DNA of 64,000 nt, taken from the NCBI GenBank assembly GCA_003220435.1, contig QHSL01000072.1, positions 1 through 64,000 on the forward strand, read 5' to 3'. Below the pieces are notes generated by a model, which was given only the letters and a program-made list of their open reading frames with translations, did not search any database and had not been told where the DNA came from. A program made the position numbers and the translations under genes. Shown here piece by piece: positions 3,274-63,690 of this stretch (position 1 is its first letter; every line of letters begins with the position of its first letter). This stretch comes from Candidatus Rokuibacteriota bacterium. Lineage in GTDB: Bacteria > Methylomirabilota > Methylomirabilia > Rokubacteriales > CSP1-6.

Positions 3274-4629
3274 ATGAAGCGGCGGATCTTCGGCCTCGAG
3301 AACGAGTACGGTCTCACCTGCACCCTGAACGGCCAGCGCCGCTTGTCCCCCGACAACGTCGCCCGCTACCTGTTCGAGAAGGTGATCCCCGGCGCCCGCA
3401 ACGCGAACGTGTTCCTGGAAAACGGCGCCCGGCTGTACCTGGACACCGGCTTCCACCCGGAGTACGCGACCCCCGAGTGCGACGACGTCGCCGAGCTGGT
3501 GATCCACGACAAGGCGGGCGAACGCATCGTCGAGGACCTGCTGCATCAGGCCGAGAAGCGCCTTCGCGAGGACGGGATCTCCGGCAACATCCTGCTCTTC
3601 AAGAACAACACGGACTCGGCGGGGAACTCCTACGGCTGCCACGAGAACTACCTGGTCAGCCGCGACGTCTCGTTCCAGCGGCTGGCCGAGGCCTTGATCC
3701 CCTTCTTCGTCACCCGGCAGATCTTCGCGGGCGCCGGCAAGGTCCTCCAGACCCCACGGGGCTTCCACTACTGCCTCTCGCAGCGCGCCCAGCACATCTG
3801 CCAGGAGATCTCCGGCGCCACGACATCATCGCGCTCGATCATCAACACCCGCGACGAGCCGCACGCCGATGCCGAGCGATATCGCCGCCTTCACGTCATC
3901 GTGGGCGACTCGAACATGTCCGAGGTCGCCACCTATCTGAAGATCGGCACGACGGCCCTCGTGCTCGACATGATCGAGGACGGCTTCTTCGACCGCGATT
4001 ACTCACTGCAGTCGCCGGTTCAGGCGATCCGCGATATCTCGCACGATCCGACGCTGCGCGAGGCGATCAAGCTGAAGGACGGGCGCTCGATCACGGCGCT
4101 CCAGATGCAGTTCGAGTACCTCGAGTACGCCACGCGGTACGTCAACTCCATCAACGCCGATCCGACGACCAAAGATGTTCTGGCTCGCTGGACGGACATC
4201 CTCACCAAGCTCGAGACAGACCCGATGCAGCTCAGCCGCGAGCTCGACTGGGTCATCAAGCGCCAGCTCATCGACAACTTCATGAACCGTCACCGCCTTT
4301 CCTGGCGTGATCCGAAGGTGTCGCTGCTGGACCTCCAGTATCACGACATCCGGCCCGACAAGGGCGTCTACTACCGCCTCGTCAGTAACGACCACGTGGA
4401 CCGGATCACCGACGACGAGACGATCGAGCAGGCCAAGCACGTGCCGCCACAGACCACCCGGGCGCGGCTGCGCGGTGAGTTCATCCGGCAGGCGAACCTG
4501 AAGGGCAAGGACTATCGCGTCGACTGGGTCTACCTGAAGCTCAACGATCCGGAGCGCGAGACGATCCTCTGCAAGGACCCGTTCCAGTCCCACGACGAGC
4601 GGGTCGAGCGCCTCATCCGCTCGTTCTGA
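3274..4629 (+). CDS. pafA: Pup-protein ligase PafA
   Basis: [15 protein letters not shown] start and [16 protein letters not shown] motif; paralogous to dop. Confidence 0.92.
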
Positions 4630-7131: not shown

Positions 7132-7905
7132 TCAGACCGCCATGATGCGGTAGCCGCAGTCGACGTAGATCACCTCGCCCGTGATCCCCGAGGCCATGCG
7201 CGACGCGAGAAACAGCGCGGTGTCCCCGATCTCCCGCAGCTCGACGTTGCGGCGCAGCGGCGCTCGGTCCGCGTGGTGCTTGAGCATGTCGGTGAAGCCG
7301 CGGATGCCCCGGGCGGCGAGCGTGTTGACGGGGCCGGCCGAGATCGCGTTCACGCGAATCCCGCGCGGGCCGAGATCGGCCGCGAGGTACCGCACCGCGG
7401 CCTCGAGCGAGGCCTTGGCGACGCCCATGACGTTGTAGCCGGCGGCGACGCGCTGCGAGCCCAGGTAGGTCATCGCGAGCACTGACGCCCCGTCGGACCG
7501 CTCGAGCAGGGGCAGGGCGGCGCGCGTCAGCCCAACCAGCGAATAGGCCGACACGTCGTGCGCGACGCGGAACCCTTCGCGCTCGGTCGTGACGAAGTTG
7601 CCCTCGAGATCCTCTCGCCGGGCGAAACCAACCGAGTGGACGAGCGTGTCGAGCCGCTCGAAGTCACGCGCCACGCCCGCAAAGACGGCGGCGACTTCTC
7701 CGTCCGAGGTGACGTCACACGGATAGACCCGCGAGCCGGAGAGCGTGCCCGCGAGCTCCTCGACGTTCTCCTTCAGTCGCTCCCCCTGGTAGGTGAACGC
7801 GAGCCGCATGCCGGCGCCGGCGAGCGCCTGAGCGATCGCCCACGCGATCGAGCGCTTGTTGGCGACGCCGAAGACGATTCCCCTCGTGCCGTCGAGCAGA
7901 CCCAT
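7132..7905 (-). CDS. fabI: Enoyl-[acyl-carrier-protein] reductase (NADH)
   Basis: GIVFGVANKRSIAWAIAQALAGAG, YQGERLKE, Y-NVMGVA-K catalytic pair, MASGITGEVIYVDCGY. Confidence 0.9.
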   Translation of the reverse strand: MGLLDGTRGIVFGVANKRSIAWAIAQALAGAGMRLAFTYQGERLKENVEELAGTLSGSRVYPCDVTSDGEVAAVFAGVARDFERLDTLVHSVGFARREDLEGNFVTTEREGFRVAHDVSAYSLVGLTRAALPLLERSDGASVLAMTYLGSQRVAAGYNVMGVAKASLEAAVRYLAADLGPRGIRVNAISAGPVNTLAARGIRGFTDMLKHHADRAPLRRNVELREIGDTALFLASRMASGITGEVIYVDCGYRIMAV

Positions 7906-10885: not shown

Positions 10886-12084
10886 GCGCACGGCGGCACC
10901 GGCGTCCGGAAGGGCGCTTGAGTCAGATGCTGGCCGTGGGGGAAGAGCCGTAGCTGCCTCGGCGCAGGCGCGCTCGCGAGCCGCCGGCCGCGAAGCGACA
11001 GGAACCAGCCCGCCCGCGTGACGTCCACGCCGGCCGCTCGCAGATCTCCCGATCCGCGGATCACGGTGCGACGCCGCTCGGCAACGATCGTCCGGGCGGC
11101 CATTGGGCCGATCCCCGGCACGCGCACCAGCGCCTCGTACGGCGCGCGAGAGACCTCGAGGGGAAAGCGCTCCGGGTGGGCGAGCGCCCACGCGGTCTTC
11201 GGGTCGTCGTCGAGCGGCAGGTTGCCGTCGGCGCTGAAGACGAGCTCGTCGTAGCCGAAGCCGAACTGTCGGAGCAGGTGCTCGGCCTGATAGAGACGGA
11301 ACTCTCGCATCGCCGGCGTGGGGCGCCGCTCCGCGAACGGCGTCCCCACCACGGGCTGAAACGCGCTGAAGTGAGCGTGATGGAGGAGCCGCTCCCCTTC
11401 GAGTCGGGCAACGAGACCGAGGATCTCACGGTCTTTTTCGCCCGCGGCGCCGACCACGAACTGCGTGGTCGTGCCGACCGACGTGACGGCGGCCGGGTCA
11501 CCGAGCAGCCGGCGCTCTCGCATGAGGCGTCCGGCCCGCTCCAGGTTCGGCAGAAGGTCGCCCAGCAAGTCTTTCTCCCGGGCGAGGGCCCTCACATGGG
11601 TGTCGCCGGGCGCCTCGAGGTTCACCGACACGCGATTGGCCAGGCGAACGGCCGCGTCGACTTGGGCCGGTTCGGCGCCTGGCAGCAGCTTCAGATGGAT
11701 ATAACCGCTGAACTCCTCACGCCGGCGTAGCAGCTCGACGGCGGCAAGCATCCGATCCGTCATCTTCGCCGGGCGGCCCGGGACGCCCGATGTCAGGAAG
11801 AGCCCATCGGCGAGACCGCGGCGTCTCGCGTCCATGAACACGCGCGCAACCTCCTCGGGCGCCAAGAAGGTGCGCCTCACTTTTCCTCCGCAGAACGTGG
11901 GGCAGTAGCCACAGGACAGCGAGCAAGCATTCGTTTGCATGACGCGCATGAGACGTGTCGAGCCCTGACCGGGATGGCGTACCTTCGTGATCCCGACCGG
12001 ATCTCCGGGTCGCATGAGCGCGCCGGATGGTCCGTCACGGTCGGCGGTCTCCGAGAGGATCGTGACCCTGGTCCTCAGGTCCAT
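10876..12084 (-). CDS. Radical SAM protein with C-terminal helix-hairpin-helix (putative DNA modification/repair type)
   Basis: CSLSCGYCP cluster motif with further Cys (TFCGGK), C-terminal VRVPGIGPMAARTIVAERR HhH. Confidence 0.78.
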   Translation of the reverse strand: MDLRTRVTILSETADRDGPSGALMRPGDPVGITKVRHPGQGSTRLMRVMQTNACSLSCGYCPTFCGGKVRRTFLAPEEVARVFMDARRRGLADGLFLTSGVPGRPAKMTDRMLAAVELLRRREEFSGYIHLKLLPGAEPAQVDAAVRLANRVSVNLEAPGDTHVRALAREKDLLGDLLPNLERAGRLMRERRLLGDPAAVTSVGTTTQFVVGAAGEKDREILGLVARLEGERLLHHAHFSAFQPVVGTPFAERRPTPAMREFRLYQAEHLLRQFGFGYDELVFSADGNLPLDDDPKTAWALAHPERFPLEVSRAPYEALVRVPGIGPMAARTIVAERRRTVIRGSGDLRAAGVDVTRAGWFLSLRGRRLASAPAPRQLRLFPHGQHLTQAPFRTPVPPCAYR

Positions 12085-47743: not shown

Positions 47744-47839
47744 GCTGGGTCAGCCGAGGAGCGCAAGGCGGTCGTCCAGACGTACCGCCGGGCCATCCGC
47801 CGGTGGTACCGGTTGCCGCGTGATGTGTCTGTTGAGTTG
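47744..47839 (+). repeat. Serine-recombinase-tail-like remnant (direct repeat, right), ending in the tRNA CCA
   Basis: Frame encodes NVRQVFEAGSAEERKAVVQTYRRAIRRWYRLPRDVSVEL and runs into the tRNA gene; about 80% match with 45030-45120. Confidence 0.7.
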
Positions 47840-47912
47840 GTGGCGGTGGGAGGAATTGAACCTCCGACACGGGGCTTATGAGACCCCTGCTCTGCCGCTG
47901 AGCTACACCGCC
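47838..47912 (-). tRNA. tRNA-Met (CAT anticodon), CCA encoded; elongator Met or Ile2 not resolved
   Basis: Minus strand GGCGGTGTAGCTCAGCGGCAGAGCAGGGGTCTCATAAGCCCCGTGTCGGAGGTTCAATTCCTCCCACCGCCACCA folds as a cloverleaf with a fully paired acceptor. Confidence 0.93.
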
Positions 47913-50742: not shown

Positions 50743-52050
50743 TCACTCCTCGAGGCCGTAGGCGGCGGCGAGGACCTCGATCGGATGCTTCGCCTTCCGA
50801 CCCGTCCCCTGCTCGATCTGGAGCGCGGCCAACGGGCAGTCGGTCGTCACCGTCGGCGCGTCGGCTGCGACGACGGCGTCGAAGAGGGGCTCCGCCACCT
50901 TGAGCGAGAGCTCGTAGTATTCCTTCTTGAAGCCCCACGTGCCGTCCACGGCGGAGCACTTCTCCACCACGTCGACGGCGGCGCCGGGCACGGTCCGCAG
51001 CACGTCCGCCGACTTGTGGCCGAGGTTCTGGGCCCGCAAGTGACAGGGCACGTGGTACGTCACGTGGCCAACGGGCCGCGTGAAGCTCGTGTCGAGCGCC
51101 CCGGCCGCCTGCAGCTGGCCGAGATACTCAAAGATGTCCCGGGTGTTCGCCGCGACGAGCTTGGCGTCGTCGGAGCCGTCGAGCCAGGGATATTCCCGCT
51201 TCAGCATGTAGCTGCAGGTCGGGCCGGGCACGACGATCTCGCATCCCTCACGGACGGCGGCGGCGAGGCTCGTCACGTTCTGCCTGATGAGGGCCTTCGC
51301 CTCGTCGACGGCGCCGCCGTCGAGGTACGGCATGCCGCAGCAGCGCTGCGCCGGCAGGCTTACGTCCACTCGGTTCCGCTCCAGCACCCGCACCGCGGCA
51401 CGCCCCGTCGACGGCGCGTAGTACTCGACGCTGCACGTCACGAACAGCGCGACTTTCCGAGCGGCGGGCTCCCGGGCCGTCGCCGCGCCCGCCGCGCTTG
51501 CGCGACGTGGAGTCATCCCCCGCGCATGTCGCCTGAACCAAGCCGAGAACGTCTGCCGGTGGAACTTGGGCATGTTCCGCCGCTTGTGGATGCCCACCAC
51601 CGCCTGCATGAAGGCGCGGTGCACGGAGCGCTCGTTCATCCAGTTCGACAGCGGCGCGCCGAGGCTCCCGAGTCGGCCGACGAGGTCGGCGTTGCCAAGG
51701 AGCCTATCTTGAAGACTCACGCCGTTCCGGCGGGCCCCGGCCGCGCGGGCTCGCAACATGAGCCGCGGGAAGTCGACTTCCCAGCGGTGCGGCGGCGTGT
51801 ACGGACAGTGGTTGAAGCAGAGCTTGCACTGGTAGCAGAGATCGACGACTTCCTTGACGTCCGACGCGGGAAGCTTGTCCACATCGCCGTCCACCGCGTC
51901 CCCGTCGATCCGGTCGAGCAGCACCTTGAACGACGGGCAGAGCGGCAGGCACCGCCGGCAGCCGCCGCAGATGTCATAGACGCGCCGCAGCTCGCGGTCG
52001 ACCGCCCCGAGATCCCAGAACTCCGCCTTCCGAAGATCTAGACTCGCCAT
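50743..52050 (-). CDS. GlpC/HdrD-like (Fe-S)-binding oxidoreductase
   Basis: CGGCRRCLPLCP and CYQCKLCFNHCPYTPP (two 4Fe-4S), CCG-type motifs (YHVPCHLRAQNLG). Confidence 0.9.
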   Translation of the reverse strand: MASLDLRKAEFWDLGAVDRELRRVYDICGGCRRCLPLCPSFKVLLDRIDGDAVDGDVDKLPASDVKEVVDLCYQCKLCFNHCPYTPPHRWEVDFPRLMLRARAAGARRNGVSLQDRLLGNADLVGRLGSLGAPLSNWMNERSVHRAFMQAVVGIHKRRNMPKFHRQTFSAWFRRHARGMTPRRASAAGAATAREPAARKVALFVTCSVEYYAPSTGRAAVRVLERNRVDVSLPAQRCCGMPYLDGGAVDEAKALIRQNVTSLAAAVREGCEIVVPGPTCSYMLKREYPWLDGSDDAKLVAANTRDIFEYLGQLQAAGALDTSFTRPVGHVTYHVPCHLRAQNLGHKSADVLRTVPGAAVDVVEKCSAVDGTWGFKKEYYELSLKVAEPLFDAVVAADAPTVTTDCPLAALQIEQGTGRKAKHPIEVLAAAYGLEE

Positions 52051-52078
52051 GATTGAGACTGGCGCGGCTAGCTACCGC

Positions 52079-52246
52079 ACGGGCTCGCGGCGAAGGGCCG
52101 ACGGGGGAGGGGCCGACCGGACCCGTTCCCTCCGAGTGGCGGCGGACGCCGCGCACCCGGATGGAGCCCAGTCGCCGCCGGGCAGCGCACGTGTGCCGCG
52201 TGGTCCGGTCGGCCCCTCCCCCGTCGGTCCTTCGTCGCGAGCCCGT
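52079..52246. repeat. Long inverted repeat element E1 (45-bp arms, 2 mismatches, 78-bp core)
   Basis: 52079-52123 is the reverse complement of 52202-52246; the core is homologous to E2 at 63117-63198. Confidence 0.93.
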
Positions 52247-52252
52247 CGTCAG

Positions 52253-52702
52253 CTAGATCGCTTCAGCTGGATCTTTCCCGGCAATCTGCTGCAGTCCCTT
52301 GTTGAACCGCCCGGCGTGCGACTTCTCGGCCTTGGCCAGCGTCTCGAACCATTCCGCCAACTCGTCGAAGCTCTCGCCGCGCGCGGTCTTGGCCATGCCC
52401 GGGTACATCTGGGTGTACTCGTACGTCTCGCCGGCGACGGCCGCCTTGAGATTCGTCTCGGTCTTTCCGATCGGCTCACCGGTCGCCGGGTCGCCGACTT
52501 CCTTCAGGAAGTCGAGGTGCCCGAAGGCGTGTCCGGTCTCGGCGTCGGCGGTGTCCTTGAAGAGGCCCGCGATGTCCGGGAACCCTTCGATGTCCGCGAC
52601 GCGCGCGAAGTACAGGTACCGCCGGTTCGCCTGCGACTCGCCGGCGAACGCTTCCTTGAGATTCTCGAAGCTCTTGGTGCCCTTGAGGCTCTTCCCTGCC
52701 AC
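52253..52702 (-). CDS. Rubrerythrin
   Basis: [23 protein letters not shown]...[17 protein letters not shown]...[18 protein letters not shown]...[14 protein letters not shown]. Confidence 0.93.
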
Positions 52703-61990: not shown

Positions 61991-63052
61991 TTACCTGGAA
62001 TGAACCGGCGCGTGGATCGGCCTGAACACGAGCGACGAGCCCTTGGAGAACGTCCAGCCCGGCACGATCGCCGAGAACCGACCGGCCAGCCCGCCCGCGA
62101 CCAGGAGCTTGATGTTGTCGGGCGTGCGGAACTTCGGGATCAGCGTGGTATCGCTCGACGGGTCGCCGAATTTCGCGAGGACGTGCTCGGGCAACCCCTC
62201 GCCCCCGTCGAGCCCCGGCCGCAGCGCGCACACCGGCCAGCGCAGGCGCTCGTGGAGCCAGCGGCGCACATCGGCCTTCTTCCAGCCGGCGTCACCGAAG
62301 ACCTTCGCGTGCTCGGGCGAGAGCACGAGCAGGGTGTCCCCCCAGTGCGTCATCCGGTGATGAGAGACGACCGCCATGCTGGCCGCCAGCGTCGGCAGCA
62401 GGTGCTCGGGCGTGCGGCTGTTGTGAGCGTAGACGCCGAGCGGCGCGTCGGCGGCCAGCACCGCGACCACGCTTTGGTCCGGCGCGAATCCGTGCTCGAC
62501 GGCAAGCGAGTCCCAGGGGCTCGCCTCCTCGTGCTCGCCGATGCAGTACGTGTAGCGTCCCGGGTGCGCCAGTGTCGACATGCTGACGACGCCGGGCCGG
62601 GCGCCGCCCAGGTTGACGCAGATGAGCCGCACCGCGCGACCGATCGTCGCGTTGGCGCGCCAGCCCGGGCCGAACACCCCGGCGCCCGAGTTGATCTCGA
62701 GCTGGGCGCGGATCGGGCCGTTCACGATCACGAGCGGCGACGGGGCGTTGGTGGTCGCGGAGACGCCGTGCAGATCGAACGCCTCGTCGCAGGCAGCGTC
62801 GATCGCGGCGATGACGACCGGGAGATATTCGGGACGGCAGCCTGCCATCACGGCGTTGATCGCGATCTTCTCGACAGTCGCGCGGCCGTAGTTGGGCGGA
62901 ACCAGCGCGACCAGCTCGTCGCCGGGGCGCCCCGAGGCCGCGATCGCCCGGTCGACGCGGGCGCGCGTCGGCGGGACGACCGGCAGGCCGTCGGTCACGC
63001 CACGGGCGTAGAGCTCCTCGATCGCATCGGCATCCACGTCTGGGACGGACAT
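61991..63052 (-). CDS. Conserved protein of unknown function directly upstream of the UGSC selenoprotein
   Basis: MSVPDVDADAIEELYARGVTDGLPVVPPTRARVDRAIAASGRPGDELVALVPPNYGRATVEKIAINAVMAGCRPEYLPVVIAAI. The track start is over-extended through E2. Confidence 0.75.
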   Translation of the reverse strand: MSVPDVDADAIEELYARGVTDGLPVVPPTRARVDRAIAASGRPGDELVALVPPNYGRATVEKIAINAVMAGCRPEYLPVVIAAIDAACDEAFDLHGVSATTNAPSPLVIVNGPIRAQLEINSGAGVFGPGWRANATIGRAVRLICVNLGGARPGVVSMSTLAHPGRYTYCIGEHEEASPWDSLAVEHGFAPDQSVVAVLAADAPLGVYAHNSRTPEHLLPTLAASMAVVSHHRMTHWGDTLLVLSPEHAKVFGDAGWKKADVRRWLHERLRWPVCALRPGLDGGEGLPEHVLAKFGDPSSDTTLIPKFRTPDNIKLLVAGGLAGRFSAIVPGWTFSKGSSLVFRPIHAPVHSR

Positions 63053-63083
63053 AGGCCAGAGGCTAACACAGCCGTCGGCAGCT

Positions 63084-63231
63084 GGATCGGACCGGGTGTG
63101 GGCGGGGTCTGGCGACCACGCGGCACGCGCTCGCTGCTCCGCGGTGGCTGGGCTCCATCCGGGCGCGCGGCACCGAGCTGTTCCCTCGGCGGGAACGAGT
63201 CGCCAGACCCTGCCCACACCCGGTCCGATCC
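63084..63231. repeat. Long inverted repeat element E2 (33-bp arms, 1 mismatch, 82-bp core)
   Basis: 63084-63116 is the reverse complement of 63199-63231; the core matches the reverse complement of the E1 core. Confidence 0.93.
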
Positions 63232-63282
63232 ACTGCCGGTTGCTGATTCTGAGTGAGCTTGACGAGGCTTGGGGCCTTCGGG

Positions 63283-63690
63283 TCAGCGGGAAGTGCTGGA
63301 ACCGGCGAAGGCGGAGGTCGTCGGGCCGGCGGCGTCGATGACCGGCCCTACGTAACCGTTGCGGTGGAGGACGGCCACGAGCAGACCGATCAGCAGCACC
63401 AGGGTCAGCACGCCGGCACCGGCGTGCCGATAGCAGCGCCGGAACCGGAGAACTCCCGCCGCGAAGATCGTGACCGCCAGCACGCTGGCGAGCGCGGGAG
63501 CGATCGCGCCCAGGCGATCGAGCCGCCACGCGACGACGCCGAGGAGCAGCAGGCCCAGCGTGCCGAGCGTGGTGAAGCCCGGCAGCACGTGGTGATACTC
63601 GGTCTCCGGCGGAAGCATGAGCATCTTCCGGCAGAGCCGCCGCTGCCGCGCCTCTTCGGGGGTCTCCGACTGCCAGAGCACGAGCCGCAT
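63283..63690 (-). CDS. Small membrane protein, unknown function
   Basis: 135 aa with several hydrophobic segments (GLLLLGVVAWRLDRLGAIAPALASVLAVTIFAAGVL; AGVLTLVLLIGLLVAVL). Confidence 0.6.
   Translation of the reverse strand: MRLVLWQSETPEEARQRRLCRKMLMLPPETEYHHVLPGFTTLGTLGLLLLGVVAWRLDRLGAIAPALASVLAVTIFAAGVLRFRRCYRHAGAGVLTLVLLIGLLVAVLHRNGYVGPVIDAAGPTTSAFAGSSTSR

Follow-up and report, generated by a model that had tools for sequence, protein, structure and literature searches.

A MITE-like element family of Rokubacteria whose palindromic arms differ between copies and are probably kept paired by arm-to-arm copying

Two inverted repeats in the window

In the window (that is, the whole 64-kb stretch of DNA analysed here), a rubrerythrin gene (52253–52702, minus strand; Pfam Rubrerythrin, 1.1e-29) is followed downstream by a gene for a CCG-domain/4Fe-4S protein (50743–52050, minus strand; Pfam CCG, 1.2e-14), and between the two stands an inverted repeat, E1, whose sequence delimits an element from CTAG to CTAG (52068–52256, minus strand) with its core oriented as the flanking genes. 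Read in core orientation, all on the minus strand, E1 comprises a 45-nt 5′ arm (52202–52246), a conserved core of 85 nt (52120–52204; ACCACGCGGCAC...GGGAACGGGTC) and a 45-nt 3′ arm (52079–52123) that is 96% complementary to the 5′ arm. A CTAG lies on each side, 52 nt from the core; the right-hand one (52253–52256) includes the TAG stop codon of the rubrerythrin gene (52253–52255, minus strand), which E1 thus abuts in sense orientation, and the left-hand one (52068–52071) is a putative target-site duplicate. The second repeat, E2 (plus strand), has a 34-nt 5′ arm (63083–63116), a conserved core of 87 nt (63115–63201) and a 34-nt 3′ arm (63199–63232; 97% complementary to the 5′ arm). It is antisense to both flanking genes, neither of which has a Pfam match: the gene on its 5′ side, which turns its start codon to E2 (61991–63052, minus strand), and the gene behind which it lies and whose 3′ end faces it (63283–63690, minus strand).

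The arms are as the first-pass annotation had described them, and the homology that it saw between the two cores holds, as they match in opposite orientation over 58 nt at 86% identity. E1 and E2 are the sole inverted repeats in the 64-kb window with a score of at least 16 and a loop of at most 150, which excludes chance as their origin. Core homology is what would place both in the family described below, given that E1 retains only the CTAG of its ends and that the terminus of E2 is no longer recognizable. By Pfam, no recombinase gene was found among the genes adjoining either element. The single tRNA gene of the window (tRNA-Met, CAT) lies at 47838–47912.

Distribution of the family and its core

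A search with the core of the genome and its relatives, which the first-pass annotation had suggested as a check, revealed a sizeable family. BLAST with E1 found approximately 31 copies in the 5.4-Mb assembly (E<1e-8), and a sequence-only core model likewise found 31 copies in the window’s genome, 12–56 per genome in eight other genomes of the same genus, at least 69 in a genome of a related genus (G029) and members in 28 of the 57 genomes of the taxonomic family, with zero copies in many other genera of that family. Rokubacteria are uncultured bacteria of soil and groundwater, and the named public records that contain the element almost all belong to Candidatus Rokubacteria or Rokuibacteriota (two have other phylum labels). 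The copies are dispersed and non-coding, measure approximately 165–250 bp including the termini and have arms of 35–45 bp around a core of approximately 85 nt; 148 of them, drawn from many Rokubacteria genomes, could be analysed.

In nearly all of the 148 copies, the core is 84–89 nt long and contains the fixed blocks ACCACGCGGCACGCG, GCGGCTGGGCTCCATC and GGGAACGGGTC; conservation of some block bases is inflated among the loci from L060 onwards, which were gathered with a pattern containing them, and the same blocks occur in the copies of the window’s genome, which came from BLAST. Core identity is 84.5% between orthologues and 79% between paralogues, conservation that is in part ascertained, as copies were found through the core; across 400 kb of the window’s genome, nearly every long hairpin can be assigned to a family by its core, which leaves few hairpins whose core has eroded. 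Third codon positions change faster than the core does, which makes a present or past function of the core probable, perhaps one connected with mRNA 3′ ends or with the termination of transcription. Genome-wide homogenization of the core was considered and rejected: within-genome paralogues are no closer (0.791) than non-orthologous copies of different genomes (0.787). Rfam gave nothing at the gathering threshold and nothing relevant at E<5, and the membership in a known RNA family that the first-pass annotation had considered was therefore not found.

Two local arrangements were also observed. In L201:9880-10344 (G007:C60), the core, 3′ arm and linker are triplicated in tandem with a period of approximately 181 bp, and only the first unit retains the left arm. 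L023 and L024 (end of G000:C127 and start of G000:C92) carry near-identical copies, flanks included, both at contig ends, and are probably one locus assembled twice (that is, an overlap or a strain variant).

Transposon termini and target sites

The first-pass annotation regarded the arms as unrelated between copies and the pattern as the opposite of a standard MITE. The former holds for old copies, such as those of the window’s genome, in which no two loci share arms (paralogous arms, 59% identity under flexible alignment), but not for young ones: numerous copies of G029 look young, and their arms share one consensus, GGCCGACGGGCGCGTGCGACAGGGGTCGCGGG. The latter is overturned by what lies just outside the arms. 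Conserved terminal inverted repeats, which begin at CTAG in G029, are present in young copies of G029, G021 and G032 and have decayed in the window’s genome. One type of terminal repeat (type a; CTAGTGTCCCGTC..GAAATCATGT) has 48 matches in G029, 11 in G021 and 8 in G032, with 0 in a reversed control. In its young form, the element would thus consist of CTAG, a terminal inverted repeat, a palindromic arm, the core of approximately 85 nt, the other arm, a terminal repeat and CTAG, and the terminal repeats would decay after insertion.

Older copies retain traces of the same target. A CTAG lies 30–110 nt from the core on the 5′ side of 50 and on the 3′ side of 34 of the 148 copies, for approximately 4 expected, so that CTAG is 9–12 times commoner beside cores than expected; both ends have it in E1, L042, L044, L057, L104 and L107, and in most old copies it has decayed on one or both sides. 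The proposed check of an empty site also bore out insertion, as the empty site L142, opposite the occupied L045, holds neither arm. Given this empty site, the young termini, the CTAG enrichment and the CTAG on both sides of E1, we conclude that the family is MITE-like. In the literature searched, repeats of this kind from Rokubacteria are the subject of no paper; the elements are a new family, an unusual variant of the MITE-like element. They seem to represent a transposon family not previously described, from a phylum without cultured members, with a strong preference for CTAG and stop codons.

The mobilizing enzyme is most likely, at least for some copies with local IS1380 termini, an IS1380-type transposase, and it is in the IS1380 group that we would tentatively place the copies of the window. 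A second type of terminal repeat (type b; CTAGCCTGGATTATTCATGAA) stands at both ends of elements of approximately 1.69 kb in G025 and G068 that have CTAG at both ends and carry an IS1380 transposase (L322, L324; family assignment by a partial ORF in L304), and a diverged form of it, by approximate match, flanks the core of the family in L077, L203 and L234. Type a does not equal the termini of the IS1380 elements. The transposase domain (PF13701) has matches in G033, G007, G008, G025, G068 and G022 and none in G029 (81% complete) or G000. An IS1380-type transposase would have moved the elements; the IS1380 copies of G007 and G008 were considered as its source and rejected, as they have other ends (for example, TAACCCCAATCCGAAA) and the matching IS1380 elements are in other genera. 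IS701 (PF13546) was likewise rejected as mobilizer, being present as a single copy, in G008, with ends that do not match. The same terminal repeats were also seen with no core or with another interior (L245:1496-1597, L272, L273, L254, L243, L250, L253 and L257), which suggests modular exchange between termini and cores.

The unlike arms of different loci could also have arisen if arms were made anew at each insertion (for example, from target sequence copied as an inverted duplicate), one of three options raised by the first-pass annotation. That no two loci of the window’s genome share arms would be expected of such a process, yet it is contradicted by the empty site with neither arm and by the common consensus of the young copies in G029, and arms have also diverged between orthologous copies, which go back to one insertion; we therefore regard it as barely credible.

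Position at gene 3′ ends

With gene positions taken from a simple codon-usage gene caller, copies tend to lie behind stop codons, with 87 at tandem sites (58 sense, 29 antisense), 31 at convergent and only 6 at divergent sites, for 77, 12 and 35 expected from intergenic length (chi-square p=1e-12). The tetranucleotide CTAG is rare here, and its last three letters are often a TAG stop codon, so insertion at CTAG would place copies at gene 3′ ends, and insertion at stop codons accounts for much of this position without any function; the position also agrees with a function at mRNA 3′ ends or in termination. It would follow, too, if long hairpins such as terminators had been there first and the core had entered their loop. 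However, 130 of the 140 long hairpins in 859 kb lie within elements of the family, only two of the others have a short loop, and the empty site is without a hairpin, all of which makes such an origin extremely improbable.

Concerted evolution of the arms

Across the 148 copies, the pairing score between the 5′ and 3′ arms of one copy is approximately 35, whereas with a 3′ arm taken from another copy it falls to approximately 8, so the earlier observation that arms are self-complementary and at the same time copy-specific extends to the family at large. Mismatch within a copy is 5–6% at 6–36 nt from the core and 16–27% beyond. The same sites are occupied in several species. Among 54 orthologous pairs, identity is 85% for flanks, 84.5% for cores and 71.6% between an arm and its orthologue, and within a single copy the arms are 92.5% self-complementary. 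Third codon positions of adjacent genes have nearly the same identity as orthologous arms (71.7%); the arms therefore change at a weakly constrained rate, but together. Between orthologues, 253 changes affect both arms, compared with 169 differences in one arm.

Nothing is normally taken to argue more strongly for a functional RNA stem than paired changes in two arms, and the arms could indeed form the stem of such an RNA (that is, a 3′-untranslated structure or a terminator) kept paired by selected compensatory mutations. The copies’ excess at gene 3′ ends and conserved core agree with this, as do the arms’ G+C content (82.5%) and sharp end approximately 36–42 nt from the core, and the 2:1 excess of sense copies at tandem sites (58 versus 29). 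A selected RNA stem should, however, favour G:U pairs and transition-type changes. Among the non-Watson–Crick pairs of well-paired arms, G:U (136) is not in excess of A:C (146; p=0.59), nor clearly so in sense-only copies (57 versus 49); in rRNA stems, by comparison, 78.5% of two-step compensations pass through G-U or U-G (PMC8794818). The commonest paired change is the C↔G flip (102 cases, 40%), and transition-type changes make up 36% of paired changes, versus 61% of the instantaneous compensations in rRNA (PMC8794818). Selection on a stem also sits poorly with arms that diverge at the rate of third codon positions, with the antisense orientation of one third of the tandem-site copies and with CTAG targeting, which already covers much of the 3′-end position. 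In the core itself, RNAalifold and a pair-by-pair scan found no convincing covarying helix (the one weak signal joins columns 42/43 with 68/69), and the strand difference in core substitutions (C→T, 0.057; G→A, 0.039) is too slight to establish an RNA. Selection on an RNA stem, another of the earlier options, is thus unsupported as the reason why the arms remain paired, and we consider it unlikely.

The two-arm changes are also clustered, with 109 adjacent to one another compared with 86.8 ± 7.1 after shuffling (reached in 2 of 2,000 shuffles). Together with the parity of G:U and A:C, the C↔G flips and the core inversions described below, this clustering favours DNA-level copying from arm to arm over selection on an RNA stem, and such copying (that is, template switching) is the best supported of the three options of the first-pass annotation. 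Each arm mutation would be copied to the other arm, or erased from it, by template switching or conversion, and the outcome at every locus would be a self-complementary arm sequence peculiar to it. The arms do change in concert; it is from the signature of these changes that we infer the copying mechanism. Template switching between inverted repeats has arm homogenization and spacer inversion as known products (PMC8604942; PMC8794818). Two points count against this explanation: a spacer of approximately 85 nt is long compared with those of the best-studied template-switch sites, and the 5′ arm is G-rich (G, 55%; C, 27%), which purely neutral arms do not explain.

Three copies of G029 (L231, L239 and L223) have a new sequence block in each arm. 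In L231 and L239, which are young, the block ACGACCCCCCA..GGGTCG takes the place of the usual segment in both arms, likely a recent two-arm conversion.

Inversion of the core

The same interaction between arms would at times invert the core. Among 63 orthologous sites that hold a single element, 6 differ between species in the orientation of the core, and at two of them the core is inverted between matching arms and flanks (L083/L123, core identity 0.91 versus 0.56; L008/L034, 0.81 versus 0.44); the other four are weaker, as one element of an original two may be gone from convergent sites or the arms align poorly. Differing orientation at these sites, two of them unambiguous, is also what site-specific invertible switches would give, in which a recombinase keeps the repeats identical and flips the core. 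Against such switches, E1 and E2 have no adjoining recombinase gene, flips are rare, the arms share no recombination site except the core-proximal GGGGTCG..GACC, and arm–arm recombination or template switching yields this product with no need of a dedicated enzyme, so we give dedicated switches very little credence. Recombination between the arms ends in what template switching also gives, and the data fit both alike. All in all, we think it likely that both E1 and E2 derive from old insertions of a MITE-like, non-autonomous element whose arms have stayed paired through arm-to-arm copying, which sometimes inverts the core; the first-pass observation is thereby confirmed, its interpretation in part. 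The conserved arms of G029 are of the kind that the first-pass annotation had itself named as speaking against its reading.

In this family, perfect-looking covariation thus seems to have been made by mutation (DNA-level copying) and not by selection on RNA. Its many loci, orthologues and young and old copies offer a natural system in which to measure ‘compensatory’ changes from template switching, and counsel caution in covariation-based RNA discovery in GC-rich genomes.

Comparison with known systems

Like the MITEs of IS1380, whose transposases have served as an outgroup to piggyBac (PMC10813416), the elements are short, non-coding, multi-copy and intergenic, with terminal inverted repeats and CTAG at both ends, and full-length IS1380-family elements of the same taxonomic family have type b as their termini. 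Unlike those MITEs, they have a conserved core of approximately 85 nt between long palindromic arms, the same core is enclosed by two or more kinds of termini, and the two arms of a copy drift together. Template-switch hairpins (PMC8794818; PMC8604942) share arm homogenization, clustered two-arm changes and spacer inversion with the family, which differs in its arms of 35–45 bp, its spacer of approximately 85 nt, its multiple copies and its orthologues in several species. REP, BIME and REPIN sequences (mobilized by RAYT) are likewise extragenic palindromic repeats, and REP has been proposed to act in transcription termination and mRNA stability (PMC3733652); REP and REPIN, however, conserve a short palindrome in all copies, whereas here it is the loop that is conserved and the palindrome, in its arms, that varies from copy to copy. 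Intrinsic terminators are similar in being GC-rich hairpins that directly follow stop codons and are absent from divergent promoter regions; unlike them, the elements occur in both orientations with a conserved core of approximately 85 nt, and no T-tract follows the 3′ arm among the copies inspected.

Related element families

Several element families of Rokubacteria differ in their core middles but have common core ends (GACCACGC...ACGGGTC), which suggest common descent or common machinery. From these common ends, the long copy-specific arms and the retention at gene 3′ ends over many species, one may tentatively read the families as domesticated bidirectional hairpin modules in which nothing but the core sequence and the presence of a long duplex matters and the duplex is maintained by mutation (arm-to-arm copying) and not by selection, a possibility that we hold to be less probable than not. 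A second family, found by hairpin scans, has 12 copies in the window’s genome, with near-perfect arms of 31–47 bp that differ between copies and a core of approximately 60–66 nt (CGTGTAGTCAGSRTTG...GGCTAGCGT; core ends in reverse, GACCACGC...ACACGGGTC). Its loci in the window’s genome and relatives are L160:365-486, L160:3200-3329, L163:7100-7242, L167:16121-16262, L114:208-362, L088:4031-4183, L179 and L181–L185. A third family occurs in G025, a genome that lacks the core of E1 and E2 (GACCACGCAAATCG...AAACACGGGTC in the third family), and again has long arms that differ between copies; its loci there (GACCACGCAAATCGACG...GTACCCGAAACACGGGTC) are L211:3468-3653, 3740-3894, 7607-7758 and 10926-11093.
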